From Lichtheimia corymbifera B2541 (Eukaryota > Mucoromycota > Mucoromycetes > Mucorales > Lichtheimiaceae): a stretch of DNA of 64,000 nucleotides. The notes beneath the pieces were generated by a model, which did no database searches, was not told the origin of the DNA, and worked only from the letters and a program-made list of their open reading frames with translations. The translations under genes and the position numbers were made by a program. Numbering within the stretch: position 1 is the first letter of the stretch; each line of letters opens with the position of its first letter. The DNA lies in NCBI GenBank assembly GCA_000697475.1, contig JNEU01000838.1, positions 1 to 64,000 on the forward strand. Direction: 5' to 3'. Shown in pieces: positions 21,476 to 30,243 of the stretch.

Positions 21476-22174
21476 ATGAAGTACGTACGCCCGCACGAGA
21501 TATCGAATGGCAACACACAAAACGATACATGGATGGATGCATATGCGGATGGATGCATCGATTAAGAAAATGGATGATTGACAGAGACATACAATGAATA
21601 GGCTCGAGATTTGCTCCTTCTCAGGCTACAAGATCTACCCTGCCAAGGGTAAGGTGTTTGTTCGCAGCGACAGCAGGTAAATGATATAGAGAGAGAGAAA
21701 GACATGTATAAATACTCATTGGTATACATTTGCATTATAGAGTAAGCCTTTATTCCATTCGATATATATCTCTATAGCTTTTTGCAGCAGCCAATGACCG
21801 ACAATGTATTTTCTATTGTAGACTTTCCGCTTCATCAACGGTAAGACCGAGTCGTACTTTTTGCAGCGTTTGAGCCCCCGTAAGATCCGATGGACCCAAA
21901 TCTACCGTCGTGTCAACAAGAAGGGTATCTCTGTTGAGGTCCGTGCCAAGCGCACTCGCCGCACTGTCAAGCATGAGCGTGCCGTTGTTGGTGCCTCCTG
22001 GGAAGAAATCCGTGCTAAGCGTACTGAGAAGCCTGAAGCTCGTGCTGCTGCCCGTCAAGCTGCCAAGGACGCTAAGAAGTCTTCCAAGGTAATTACGAAA
22101 AAGTGTATAGGATGGGAAATGAAGTACTTATCATGGGATTATATATATAGCCTGCTCCTGCCAAGAAGGCTTAA
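21476..22174 (+). CDS. rpl24: 60S ribosomal protein eL24, 123 aa, with 5-nt first exon and 1-nt third exon
   Basis: Exons are 21476-21480 (ATGAA), 21602-21676, 21741 alone (A), 21822-22088 and 22151-22174. Joined, the start is MKLEICSFSGYKIYPAKGKV, matching eL24 starts (MKVE-CSFSG). The body carries FRFINGKTESYF, the KIRWTQIYRR motif and KRTRRTVKHERAVVGAS. eL24 sits in the large subunit and bridges it to the small one. Exon 2 ends with AG and exon 4 starts with ACT TTC. One extra base is needed to give the Arg codon AGA and keep the frame. The base at 21741 lies between a good acceptor (tgcattatag) and a good donor (gtaagc). Without it the protein is frameshifted. The family call is certain; the microexon is inferred. 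Confidence 0.9.
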
Positions 22175-22559: not shown

Positions 22560-23960
22560 TGTTCGGGACATCGCCTTTTGACATTTGCAGAGTATTTGAT
22601 AGCGAGTTCTTGTTCTTCCGTGCAGTTCTCGGGATTGATCCTTTGGAAAGCCTCTTTCACCGCATGCAGTGGCTGCTATAGATTCCCATAAAGAAAATAC
22701 GCAGCGAGCTTGTTCGATCCATAAGCAATTGCCGTATAGGCATCAGCAGTTGCAGGTAACTAAATCAATCATCCATCATTAGATGCTATCGACTAATCAT
22801 GTAAAGGAGTGTTCTTGGTCACTTGAAGTCGACATGGCCTCAATTGCATGATGAAAATAAATGTCTGGCGCAAGGAGTACATACCGTTCAAATGCTGGTA
22901 GATTGGGCAACAGCTGGGAATGGGAGGACGCGGATGTATGCTCCTTTACGGAGTGTTCTATCACTTTATCTTCGTTTTTGAAAGCATCCTATAGCTGAAC
23001 ACGTTAATAACAAGATTTAATTGCATCTCCAACATTTCAGCATATGACTACAATGGCCATACATATCATCAAATACGCTAGTATTCATTTGCCAACCATC
23101 ACAGTACGGAGGCCCAGAAGATAATAATTCCATGCTCTTTTGCAACGGTGACGTCCGTTGGCATGACATCGACGTAATGATATCCTCTTCATGAAAATTT
23201 GGATGAACACCTCAGATTTGGGTGTGGAACAATCAACGACATGGAGTATTGAGAGTGTCCTCTGCCTGAACACGATCCACTGATCCTCAAAATGTGCTTG
23301 TTTTGCTTGTTACTCCTTGTAGAGAAGTTGGAGGACATATTATCCAGAACTTAAGAGATCCCCATCACCATAAATGATGCCAAACACCGAATGTGATTCG
23401 CGATTGAAACAACAAGTCAAACCGATGGATCCTTGTTCGCTTTTGTAAGAGCCTGCTTGAGAGAGGTGGCCGATGAATGATTGCTTTGGATGAATAATCC
23501 TTCATCTTGACCAGTATGTCCAATGCCGTCAGCATATCCACCCATGTTCTTGTCCATATAAATTTCTAACAACCAATCCGGTCGTCCTGCTTGGATATAC
23601 ATAGACTTCGCACCTAGTTATTGTATGGCGGATTAGTCTCGATTAGCATACTTTGTTGTAGAGGAAGAAACTCGTACCGCTTGAAACTGAAAGTATTTAA
23701 ATTTCTTCATCAAAGAGTGGAAAAAAGTTCCTTTGATGGTTTGCCTTCATTGGAGTCACCCTCCCGTATCCTGAAGAAATTGTTGTTGACGGATCCATTG
23801 CCAGTCATCATCCGAAGTATGAGACTTTGCTATTGCACCATGTCAAATGCACCATATCAGCACCCGACGTTGACCCGTGGCACCGAAACCAGCTTTGCAG
23901 ATGCTTCACAGGAGATAACTATATCGAAAGTAAAGGGTGATGTGGATGAGTAGTGACTCA
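22560..23960 (-). pseudogene. Decayed coding-like region, unrecognised family
   Basis: The - strand shows several short stretches that read like exons of one protein, but frames change and stop codons interrupt them. Examples are GGYADGIGHTGQDEG near 23.5 kb, GPPYCDGWQMNTS near 23.1 kb, LPNLPAFER near 22.9 kb and HAVKEAFQRINPENC near 22.6 kb. Their composition is protein-like and their order suits one gene running right to left. I could not join them into an intact model and recognise no family. It may be a pseudogene, or a highly intron-split gene that I failed to assemble. Confidence 0.3.
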
Positions 23961-25723
23961 TCAAGAAATATAATGAGGCTTTACTTTACAAAAGGATCAT
24001 CTACTATCACAATGAGGACGACAACGACGAAAACAGCAATGAGAGTAGGATAAAAATGAAGCACTATGAATGACCACAAAGATCAGCGCTTATCCACAAG
24101 GTTTCAAGAAATAACATATGTATTACAAGAAGGTTGGTGATTTGACCTTGTAAGCAATCAAAGAAGTATGACAGTGGAGGAAAGAGATGCGTGGGCGGCG
24201 GCAACATCCTTTTATGTGCATTATGGGCGTGGGTATTTATGTCTGTTGGGATGATTATTGGTGCATGAGCTGATAAAGTGATGGGGCGTATATATCAGGA
24301 TGCTGTCTAGGTGTAATGTTGTCTATGCATACAACGGTCAAAGTAAGGAAGATGATAAAATCTATCAAGGTAATCAATCACTTGTACACCTAATGCACAT
24401 CCTCATTATTATAAAGGTGACTTTCTATCAATATTGGTATGCGTGTTCTTGGTAAGCAGCGAGGATGCTCTGATCTCCTTTGATACCAACAATCAAGCTT
24501 CATCTGGCATTGTGCAAATCGTGGTTTGAATATGTAAAGCATGCACCACGCATTCAGAGTAATAGCATGATCAAGATGACTACGTTAATACCACAAGGTA
24601 TAGCACACAGCAACCCCGCATCCAGATCCTTCCATCCCAAGTATTGTAGTAATTCAATTGTATTGAAAGTAATGAATAAAACGTATGCTGGTATCTACTA
24701 CTAGTCATCTATCGAAAGACTGCAGGGCAAGTTGGTGCGAGTTTGTTCGAGACAAGGCCTGCTGCTGGAATGGACGCTGTTATACTGGGTGGGGGTGTGC
24801 AGTGTCAATGAAGGTTGCTGTTCAGGGCCCTGTGCTTAGCATTCAGCCAGACTGAGGACAATGACACAATGGGACAGAGCAGAGCAATCGTGTGCCCATG
24901 TGAATCGTGCAACAGTTGAGCCGTTGGATGCAATGTTGGAGGGAATGAAATAGCAGCAGCCGCACTGATAAAACGGTGTACCTGGCGAGAGCGGGGTTTT
25001 TACCAAGCTAGGAAGGGGGAGCAACAAGGAGAGAGATACATTTGCCGGGGTTGTTCATGTGTGCCTCTGAGCTGGATTAAGGTTGAGAGAAACAAAGTAA
25101 CTAAATGGGTTGGTTTCAGATTCATTGGTATCTAGCGTGTCAAAAAAAAGATCGACATCAAAGACAGCAGCCCGTTATTCATTCAACGCACAAGCATGTT
25201 TGATATGATTACTAACCATGCAAAAAGAATAAAAAGAAAGAACCATTTCTTGTGTAAGGATGTACCAATAATGCCTGTGTATGTCGATTATCCAAACGCG
25301 TCTCGGTTGCTATGATATAAAATTACCCGCTTCTTTTTTTACTGCGCTCGAAAAAAAAAAAAAGCCAAAATAGCGTGGAAGGGAACTCAACGTGCAACGA
25401 GTTTTCTTCCGCCCTCTCTTTCATTCCCTCTTCTCGCCTTTACAAAGATCCCACTACGCTCCTTGAACGGTTCTTTCTTTTCCCTTTCTTCTTCTTCTTC
25501 CCGTATTAAACTTTCCTTCATTATCATCATCATTCCGAGTATACACGCTTTATTTCAATCATCATCACCGCAGTACCCCTTGTCCTACACTATTCTCAGG
25601 TACAAAGAACTATTACTGCTCTTCATTTAACAATTGCTCATTGTGGCATTGGCATTAGCATACCACCATTGTGTATTCGACTACTACCACCACCACTTTA
25701 CGAGACAACACCTTCTTGCCAAC
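23961..25723. other. Upstream region of the flippase gene, no gene seen
   Basis: Only short frames without motifs are present. The last ~350 bp (25360-25700) are pyrimidine-rich with CTT and TTC runs, common in strong fungal promoters and leaders. The start codon at 25724 follows. Confidence 0.4.
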
Positions 25724-26370
25724 ATGGGGAAGCGACTTGGTCTCCAGGCACTGTTACGCCGTAAAAAACAGGAAATTGATGATGAGGAGCAAGAGGATGC
25801 TATGAGACGACTCGACTCACGGTCCTCGTACATGCAACAACGACGACGTATCTACGTGAATATGGAATTACCTGCATCCGAGTACGATGACAAGGGCAAA
25901 CGCATTAATAACAGCACTGTCAGCAACCGTATCCGCACAGCAAAGTACACGCCTCTCACATTTATACCCAAGAATCTGTTTGAGCAGTTTAGAAATGTGG
26001 CCAACTTGTACTTTTTGTTCTTGGTCATTCTGCAATGCATTCCTATCTTTGGTGTTGTTCAACCTGCTGTCTCTGCTTTGCCATTGATTGCCATTCTTAT
26101 CATCACCGCTATCAAGGACGGCTTCGAGGACTGGAAACGCACCCAAAGTGACAGTCGCGTGAATAATGCCAAGACTTTGACGCTGAACAGCAAATGGTCC
26201 AATGTCAACATCCCCAATGTGAACCACGGCCCCTTTCACTTTTTACATGTTATCCTCGGCTTTTTTCATGTCATGGCAGGTATCGATAGCTCCTATTCGC
26301 AAGCCTATCGTACCTCGAGGCGCAATCACAAGAACAAAAAGCATAGCAAGCCCAAAAGGAAGAAATATTC

Positions 26371-26403
<33 letters not shown>

Positions 26404-29400
26404 CTATCCTCAAGAACGCCGTGGTACAGAAGACAAGTTGCCATTGACTGAGTTACCTGCAGCACATGGATTAGCATCATCCGCATCATCACAGCATGGT
26501 GGTGCTCCAACAGAGCCTCATAAAGCTCACGTGCATCCGTTTTCTTTACGACATGGCACCATCCGCACTGAACTTGGCAGCATCTTTAGAAAGAATCGAG
26601 GTCGTCAACCGCATCCATTTAGTCATCAACGCACCGATTCAGCATCGACACGCCATTCAGTCTTGTATCGTGTACGTACTCAAGAAAGTGGTGCAGCACC
26701 TGTGCCTTTGTTACGACGCTCATCCACCGTTCATCCACCGAGTTTACCACGTGACAAGAAAAATGAACGTCCGCCTCTTGAAGGCAAGCTTGCCGCCAAT
26801 GGCGATGTACGCTGGAAGAGTACCAAATGGAAAGATCTGAATGTGGGCGATTATATTATGATGCGTAGTGATGACGATGTTCCTGCTGATGTGGTCATTC
26901 TTGCTACTTCGGATGATGACAACATTTGCTATATTGAGACTCAAAACCTGGATGGCGAAACCAACCTCAAGGTCAAGAATGCCCTCTCTGCCACCAAAGA
27001 TATTGCATCCGTTGAAGATTGTCAGAATGCCGAATTCTACATTGAAAGCGAACCACCCCATGTCAACTTGTATGCCTACAGCGGTGTCATGAAGTGGCAA
27101 ATCGATGCTGAAGAAGCCGAGGATGGTATCCCTTATGAAAAGACCGAACCTATCACTTATAGCAACATATTGCTTCGTGGATGTGTGGTGCGTAATACCG
27201 ACTGGGTCATTGGTGTCGTCGTCTTTACCGGCAGAGATACCAAGATCATGCTCAATTCCGGTCAGACCCCTTCCAAACGCAGTAAAATGGCCAAGGCAAC
27301 CAATCCTCATGTAAGTGTGTGTGTGATGGACTCAAACTTTTTATTTACCATCATCCACCATTTTTTAGGCGATTGCCAACTTTGTTATCCTTGCTATCAT
27401 TTGTATCATCAGCTCAATCTTTGATAGCGTGCAATATCATTCGGCAGGCTCTATGCGCTTTTTCGATTTCAATATTAGCGGTGATAGTGCAGCCTACAAT
27501 GGCTTTTTAACATTTTGGTAAGCACCACTTTTAATGGGACCCTCATCATGCTAACATGTTATTGTCAAGGGTGACATTGATTTTATATCAAAACATTGTG
27601 CCTATTTCACTTTATATTTCGGTGGAGATTGTAAAGACGCTTGCTGTAAGTAAAAAAAAAAAAGTGGATAGGAGAACAAGAACAACAACAGCTCACATGA
27701 TCATCATGCACATGTAGGCCTACTTCATTTATTCAGACATTGACATGTACCATGCTCCGACGGATACACCATGTATTGCCAAAACTTGGAATATCTCAGA
27801 TGACTTGGGCCAAATCGAATACATCTTTTCCGACAAGACGGGCACATTGACACAGAACGTAATGGAGTATCGCAAATGTACGATCAACAGCGTAAAATAT
27901 GGCCTAGGCATGACCGAAGCATCAATGGGAGCCAAGTTGCGTGAAACAGCTGAGAAACGACAATCCATGCGATCGCTTGGCCAAACTACACATCTTGACA
28001 TGATGGATGATGCAGCAACCACTACCATAGGAGAAGACCCAATGCAAGTGCTTGAAGCAGCCAAAAAAGAAATGTACGACAAGCAAGCCTTGCTCTTTGA
28101 GAACAAGCATGTGGGTGCCAATCCTACCTTTATTGATCCCAAGTTGTATGACCATTTGGGGCAAGATGATGCTCAAGCTGCCTCGATTATGCATTTCTTC
28201 ATGTCCTTGGCTTTGTGTCATACCGTGGTTGCCGAACGACCCGATGAAGAGAACCCAGACCAGATCGAGTATCGTGCCCAATCGCCAGATGAAGCAGCCC
28301 TTGTAGCAGCAGCACGTGATGTTGGCTTTGTGTATTTGGGCCGTGAGGGCAATACGTTGAAGGTGCAAGTGCGTGGTGAACCCATGTCCTTTGAACTCTT
28401 GAATGTGCTCGAATTCAATTCTTCACGCAAACGCATGAGTGTGATTCTACGACCCCATGACAGTAACAAGATCATCCTTTTGTGCAAGGGTGCTGATTCC
28501 ATTATTTACGACCGACTCTGCACCGACTTTGGTAACCAAGCTGAATTGGAAGCAGCCCAAACAGAATTGCGTACAACGACAAGCAGCCATCTTGAAGATT
28601 TTGCCAACGAGGGCTTACGTACCTTGTGTCTTTCCTATCGTTTCATTTCTGAAGAGGAATATGCAGCATGGAATCAACGCTATCAGGAAGCGAGTGCCAG
28701 TTTATATGACCGTGAACAAAAGATCGAGGATGTATCCGAACAAATCGAGTGCAACATGTTGCTCATGGGTGGTACTGCGATTGAAGATCGACTCCAAGAT
28801 GGTGTGCCTGAAACTATTGCCGAGCTTGCCAAATCAGGTATCAAGCTTTGGGTGTTGACAGGTGACAAGACCGAGACTGCTATCAACATTGGCTTTGCAT
28901 GCAACTTGTTGACGACGGATATGGAACTGGTCATTGTCAAGGCACAAACACGCGAGGATACAGCGGCCGAGTTACGTTCAGCCCTCGATCGTACCGATCC
29001 ACAAACGTCGCCTTCCGATATCAAACGCGCTTTGGTGATTGATGGTACCACACTTAAATATGGTCTTGAACCCAAGAACAAAGCCATGGTGCTCGAACTC
29101 GGCATGCGATGTACAAGTGTTCTTTGTTGTCGTGTGAGTCCAAAGCAGAAAGCTGAGGTTGTACGCCTGGTCAAAAAGGGTCTCAAGGTGATGACATTGG
29201 CTATTGGTGATGGTGCCAACGATGTATCCATGATCCAAGAAGCCAATGTCGGGATTGGTATCTCGGGTCTCGAAGGTCGACAAGCGGTGATGGCGTCGGA
29301 CTATGCAATTGCACAGTTCCGGTTCTTGCATAAACTATTGCTGGTGCACGGCCGTTGGTCATACCTACGCACATCCGAAATGATCATGGGCTTCTTTTAC

Positions 29401-30243
29401 AAGAACATTGTTTGGACATTTGTCCTGTTTTGGTATCAAATCTTTTGCCAGTAAGTGTTAGCTTTTATCAACATTTTCATCGTTGTCGTCATGGAAACTA
29501 ACCTTTAGAATAGATTTACTGGATCCATGATGTTCGAGTACTCGCTGGTGACCCTCTACAATTTGATCTTCACGTCAGTACCAATCATCTTTTTGGGTGT
29601 TTGGGATCAAGATTTGGATGCCAAAACATCGCTTCGCTACCCTGAGCTCTATCGTATGGGTTTACGTAACGACGTGTTTACGGTACCACGCTTCTACCTT
29701 ACAGTATTTGATTCGATTTACCAGTCAGTCGTGTGCTTCTTTTTCCCGTACATGCTCCTGGTAGCTGGCAACATTGACATGAATGGATACAGCGTCAATG
29801 GCATTTATGAAATTGGTACGGTGGTCTCAAGTATCGTTGTATGTGTGGCCAACTTTTTCGTGGCTGTGTCATTGTATGCATTCACGTGGATCCAAGTTGG
29901 TATCATTGCCTTGTCGATTCTCGTGTACTATGCATTCGTCGGTATTTATGCACAATTCAATACCTTTGTCTTTGCTGGCCATGTTCGCATGTTTGGATCA
30001 GGATACTATTGGCTCGTGTTCATTCTCACCGTCGTCGCTTGCTTTGTCCCACGCTATGCAGCCCTACATATTCTGAATCAATATCGCCCTTACGACAATG
30101 CCATCATTCGTGAAAAAGAACTCGTGCTATCAAAATCACATTCCTTGGATGCATCCGAAAAAGGCCACCCTCCTTCTTCTTCATCAAGAACCATTGCCAA
30201 CGAAGGCCCCTTTGAAGATATCAAAATGGAAGAGCAACGATAA
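25724..30243 (+). CDS. P4-type ATPase, Dnf1/Dnf2-like phospholipid flippase, 1424 aa
   Basis: Five exons: 25724-27310, 27369-27517, 27570-27645, 27718-29450 and 29514-30243. It moves phospholipids from the outer to the inner leaflet of the plasma or late-secretory membranes, normally with a Cdc50/Lem3 partner. Motifs in order: TM1-2 region FEQFRNVANLYFLFLVILQC, actuator NLDGETNLK, TM4 region VPISLYISVEIVKT, phosphorylation site SDKTGTLTQN with the catalytic Asp, nucleotide-binding KGADS, hinge GDGANDVSMIQEA and TM7-10 in the last exon. A basic insertion of about 200 residues sits between TM2 and the actuator domain, as in Dnf proteins, and contains ten consecutive His codons (26374-26403 region). 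The start is the ATG before GKRLGLQALL. The sequence just upstream is open but has no earlier ATG in frame. Confidence 0.93.

Follow-up and report, generated by a model that had tools for sequence, protein, structure and literature searches.

The eL24 ribosomal protein gene in the window (the whole stretch of 64,000 nucleotides that was analysed) raised the question of how an intact protein is obtained from two coding exons that do not join in frame. The gene spans positions 21476 to 22174 on the forward strand of contig C223, in a genome of 34.98 Mb and 432 contigs. In the spliced model, coding exon 1 (ATGAA, 21476-21480) contributes five coding nucleotides and is followed by intron 1 of 121 nt (GTACGT...TAG, 21481-21601) and by exon 2 of 75 nt (21602-21676), which ends in GAC AGC AG. 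Exon 3 of 267 nt (21822-22088), placed by genome search and the spliced model, starts with ACT TTC CGC and is followed by intron 4 of 62 nt (22089-22150) and by exon 4, which includes the stop codon TAA (22151-22174). An earlier note on this DNA had pointed out that direct joining of exon 2 to exon 3 breaks the frame. This was confirmed, as exon 3 then reads RLSASSTVRPSRTFCSV and translation stops at a TGA at 21871-21873. The same note had proposed that the A at 21741 is an exon of one nucleotide, and its coordinates proved exact: the base lies between an intron 2 of 64 nt (GTAAAT...TTATAG, 21677-21740) and an intron 3 of 80 nt (GTAAGC...TTGTAG, 21742-21821) and supplies the third base of the Arg27 codon, AG/A. 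With this base, the coding sequence measured 372 nt including the stop codon, as had been claimed, and encoded a protein of 123 aa in which the Ribosomal_L24e domain (PF01246) was recognised with 101.8 bits against a cut-off of 27. Its closest relatives among the matches listed were Lichtheimia eL24 models, so that the DNA probably comes from a Lichtheimia (Mucorales, Lichtheimiaceae). The gap-free alignment to other eL24 proteins that had been asserted was borne out at the joint. Both alignments shown to solved ribosomes, for which the query was the L. ramosa model P0001, crossed it uninterrupted; residues 1-118 of 9axt chain Bi aligned to residues 1-118 of P0001 without a gap.

A search of the same assembly showed two further eL24 genes, on contigs C427 and C110. 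All three copies shared the exon lengths 5/75/1/267/24 and the 372-nt coding sequence, with introns of 64 and 80 nt (C223), 73 and 75 nt (C427) and 60 and 78 nt (C110) on the two sides of the one-base exon. Any two of the three coding sequences had 11 to 24 differences over 372 positions, and all but 1 or 2 of these fell on third codon positions. Every copy was exactly one base short between GA[CT]AGCAG and AC[CT]TTCCG and carried TT[AG]TAG/A/GTAAG[CT] in the middle of the intron (3/3 for both). The longest word common to the three intron interiors was the 9-mer TAGAGTAAG (TAG/A/GTAAG), while a shared word of length 9 was found in 1 of 5000 dinucleotide-shuffled triples. The pattern YAGNGTRAG was present at four sites on both strands of the 64-kb window, one of them at 21741 (a rate of about 0.005 per 150 nt), and once in each homologous eL24 intron in all three copies. 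When the remaining three sites of the window were inspected by eye, none lay at a gene joint comparable to this one. The weaker pattern AGNGT alone is not rare, with an expectation of about 0.44 per 150 nt. Outside the splice sites, four of the six pairwise comparisons of intron interiors gave scores that many shuffles also reached (35 to 150 of 200). Similarity above shuffles was seen for intron 2 between C427 and C110 (0/200) and for intron 3 between C223 and C427 (2/200), and because of these two comparisons the shared sites could be partly owed to shared descent. Since the paralogs are related, the three-copy comparison tests retention, not independent origin.

Two features of the paralogs concern other parts of the gene. 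Coding exon 1 consisted of only five coding bases (ATGAA) in each copy, and the first introns were unequal in length (121, 64 and 108 nt). In addition, the stretch between exons 2 and 3 of the C427 paralog had a second site, AG/T/GTATT, which corresponds to an alternative one-base exon T and would turn residue 27 from Arg into Ser; the other two copies showed no second one-base exon of this type.

Splice models were listed from the YKIYP codons of exon 2 to the start of exon 3, comprising all in-frame one-intron models (GT/GC-AG) and two-intron models (GT-AG) for a minimum intron length of 40 nt. Among the canonical models listed, only that with the one-nucleotide exon A reproduced the conserved protein exactly in each of the three copies, which supported the proposal of the earlier note. 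The frame needs exactly one base, AG and GT directly flank the A, both introns are of viable length, and the arrangement is conserved at the DNA level in the three paralogs, with other species represented by protein models. The best one-intron model common to the three copies lost the residues VRSDSR, and a GC donor model available in C427 alone inserted one Tyr. A longer cryptic exon was rejected, as with a single internal exon and the same minimum intron length the exact protein was restored by no exon length except 1.

The joint in other species was read from deposited protein models, not from genomic DNA. Three protein searches (best 120 of 304, 597 and 1175 hits each) gave 222 distinct proteins, which were grouped by hand from their displayed names and called intact at the joint by a regular expression match. 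Forty unnamed or doubtful proteins were excluded from the comparison; 38 of them had the intact pattern, and those that did not were a fragment (P0114) and a protein with a joint of normal length (P0163). Among the matches listed, the joint was broken in 49 of 68 Mucorales and Umbelopsis models (43/62 and 6/6, respectively) compared to 0 of 114 models of other named fungi (0/16 Mortierellomycota, 0/5 Glomeromycotina and 0/93 others). The Fisher value of 4.6e-29 for this contrast is descriptive only, because models of one pipeline or clade are not independent. At least one of four traces fitting a missing base was carried by 23 of the 49 broken models among the matches listed. A skip of six residues was present in 11 of the 68 Mucorales and Umbelopsis models listed and may come from a gene finder that takes the Val codon GTN as the intron start. 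Among the models listed, eight had Arg followed by Val (RVSIW in L. ornata or RVSA in Rhizomucor, for instance), as expected from splicing at the acceptor that precedes the one base, with read-through across A/GTN. A frameshifted exon 3 peptide was found in three of the models listed from Rhizopus and Mucor (P0121, P0127 and P0147). P0121 also belonged to the eight Arg-Val models, and SRLSVS in Rhizopus arrhizus P0127 and Mucor hiemalis P0147 is the kind of peptide produced by direct joining without the base. Finally, two of the models listed ran through the exon 2 donor (AGG TAY). The remaining broken models had exon 2 in the wrong frame, were partial or were fusions (P0101 and P0113), and gave little information on a missing base.

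The two Lichtheimia annotations differed at the joint. The L. corymbifera model P0004, which comes from an AUGUSTUS annotation with RNA-seq (data under PRJEB3978) as described in the part of the source consulted (PMC4133162), contains VLNPFRLYCR, and this peptide results when the C427-type intron is translated between an upstream AG and precisely the donor A/GTAAGC. The L. ramosa model P0001 has the expected joint SDSRTFRF and differs from the window protein in the last residue only; the consulted part of its source describes an EVidenceModeler/PASA annotation that drew on 454 transcripts as well as on ab initio models and aligned proteins (PMC4161746). P0001 would thereby lend indirect support to the presence of the base in mature mRNA. 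A point against the one-base exon is that 19 of the 62 Mucorales models among the matches listed, P0001 among them, were intact when judged from the protein alone. From the traces we infer that AG/A/GT would be present in each of the species concerned and that the one-base exon would be at least as old as the Mucorales, and its age probably reaches Mucorales plus Umbelopsidales.

Overall, base 21741 can be read, with a probability of about 0.93, as a genuine and obligatory single-nucleotide exon of eL24 whose two short introns would be removed stepwise by intron definition. The frame, the splice sites, the listed models and the three gene copies were observed directly, and from them we infer the inclusion of the base in the mRNA and the stepwise removal. 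The spliceosome would take out two ordinary short introns in succession, because with one base between them the complexes at acceptor and donor would clash, or could hardly both be in place at once. Removal of intron 2 first would add the A to exon 2, and the donor would read CAGA/GTAAGC, while removal of intron 3 first would give an acceptor reading TTATAG/AACTTT. Exon 2 and intron 2 both end in AG, which leaves the donor context AGA/GTAAG unchanged by removal of intron 2, so that either order would work. Both orders would result in AGC AG/A/ACT, that is Ser-Arg-Thr, and in full-length eL24, and the spliced joint in the three copies would be GACAGCAG/A/AC[CT]TTCCG. A ratchet point of recursive splicing is a zero-length exon (AG/GT) that regenerates the 5' site, and such points are located in long introns. 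The eL24 site is of another kind, with one base between AG and GT and a combined stretch of 139-149 nt.

Without the one-nucleotide exon, the reading frame ended early in all three copies. In the window copy, the last junction (exon 3/4) follows this stop at a distance of 215 nt, and the skipped form would likely be a target of nonsense-mediated decay. A speculative extension of the obligatory exon, which we regard as doubtful, is that the one-base exon is older than the split of Mucorales and Umbelopsidales and has been kept since as a frame switch. Inclusion would then give eL24 and skipping a decay-prone mRNA, and the order or efficiency of the splicing steps would set the eL24 supply. It is also unlikely that a real one-base exon is subject to regulated inclusion, with skipping leading to the premature stop and the level of eL24 being tuned through nonsense-mediated decay. 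The early stop of the skipped form in all three copies would agree with such regulation; however, most frame-breaking skips would act likewise, and this reading is drawn from the sequence.

Explanations that dispense with the exon fared worse. One intron of 145 nt with an end moved to a non-canonical site (GT...TA or TA...AG) would supply AG/G and leave Arg unchanged, and both one-base shifts yielded the exact protein in 3/3 copies, codon 27 being the sole difference (AGA with the one-base exon, AGG with the shifted end). However, each of the three copies would have to use a non-AG or non-GT end with a perfect AG or GT just one base off, and the conserved splice sites in the middle of the intron would have no role, which makes this reading very unlikely. 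We consider it most improbable that a canonical intron starts at GTTCGC inside exon 2 and gives a protein without the six residues VRSDSR, even though this intron is in-frame and GT-AG in 3/3 copies and the six-residue skip in the Mucorales and Umbelopsis models is of the same type. The equivalent residues were present by pattern in 114/114 models of other named fungi among the matches listed, and also in the two alignments shown to solved eL24 structures. Moreover, the six codons were identical across the three copies except for one synonymous GAC/GAT change and end at CAG/GTA, and GTTCGC is a poor donor.

The earlier note had named a one-base error near 21676 or 21822 as one of two findings that would overturn its proposal, and one-base indels are common in draft assemblies. 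Such an error, with a base missing from the assembly and one ordinary intron, was practically excluded because the two further eL24 copies are without the same base, and the identical gap therefore stands at three separate loci on different contigs. The frameshifted exon 3 peptides of Rhizopus and Mucor suggest the gap in other genera, and the conserved 9-mer within the intron would be left unexplained. Ribosomal frameshifting was also considered and would likewise leave the conserved mid-intron splice sites unexplained.

The surroundings of the gene were also scanned. Genes downstream of eL24 (window 25822-29995) were colinear with C427:161742-165920 in four pieces of 69-74% DNA identity, and C427 (198.7 kb) carries both this block and an eL24 paralog. 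The colinear block may be an old segmental duplication. A stretch of approximately 700 nt (23823-24532) had at least 39 further matches, full or partial, scattered over many contigs on both strands at 68-85% identity. It contained no long open frame, two peptides taken from it were without a Pfam match, and it is possibly a decayed dispersed element. The window gave no hits with Rfam at gathering thresholds or in a tRNA scan. A scan of viral contigs showed no relative, and that of the genome contigs collection showed one archaeal L24e match only.

Ribosomal protein genes are a heavily transcribed class, and eL24 is a notable host for a one-base exon. If confirmed, single-nucleotide exons would not be a curiosity of rarely used genes, and the spliceosome would be able to handle a one-base exon with good efficiency in a gene on which every ribosome depends. 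Since RNA-seq of Mucorales should contain abundant eL24 reads, this is readily testable. Confirmation would also mean that most of the Mucorales and Umbelopsis eL24 models listed (49/68) are wrong at the joint, which would provide a benchmark for gene finders. The many species and paralogs with a fixed joint would in turn permit a comparative study of how a one-base exon originates and is kept.

The comparisons with known single-nucleotide exons are based on the consulted parts of the papers cited. In Arabidopsis APC11, a single-nucleotide exon was proven by cDNA and reporter constructs, which included mutation of the base, and its authors, Guo and Liu, suggest intron definition and stepwise removal (PMC4674806). 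The earlier note was right to take APC11 as a precedent but overstated the rarity of such exons, since those of VPS55 (PMC8831610) and Fusarium CYP621A (PMC12940212) are in print. Nuclear genes reported to have one are few. APC11 and eL24 both have a single A between AG and GT that is needed for the reading frame; the APC11 exon is constitutive in a plant cell-cycle gene (PMC4674806), and its host intron is 422 nt compared to 139-149 nt in the eL24 copies. The 1-nt microexons of plant APC11 and VPS55 have RNA-seq and RT-PCR support in land plants (PMC8831610). They are conserved, absent from reference annotations and followed by a well conserved donor (GTRAGT in VPS55), and the term "ribosomal protein" is absent from the consulted main text of that paper. 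Mitochondrial examples are the 1-bp exon of placozoan cox1 and the one-nucleotide exon of Ophiostoma rnl (PMC5436844, PMC12308204), where one base is likewise left between two introns; these are group I or group II introns with another splicing mechanism. The consulted openly licensed PMC literature on one-nucleotide exons and microexons gave no earlier report of the eL24 case.

A further likeness is with Fusarium CYP621A, whose one-nucleotide exon is according to its authors the first for a fungal gene (PMC12940212). Both are fungal nuclear genes with tandem short introns in which the exon was found through a gap in the frame, and the combined introns measure 139 nt in F. graminearum CYP621A and 139-149 nt in eL24. 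The CYP621A exon, AG/G/GT, is conserved in orthologs and supported by SRA reads (PMC12940212). CYP621A is an Ascomycete P450 gene with the base G that is rarely expressed according to its authors, whereas eL24 is a ribosomal protein gene of Mucoromycota with the base A and three paralogs, known here from its sequence. Spliceosomal one-nucleotide exons are thus already known, and what is unusual here is the gene and the copy number, and the probable age.
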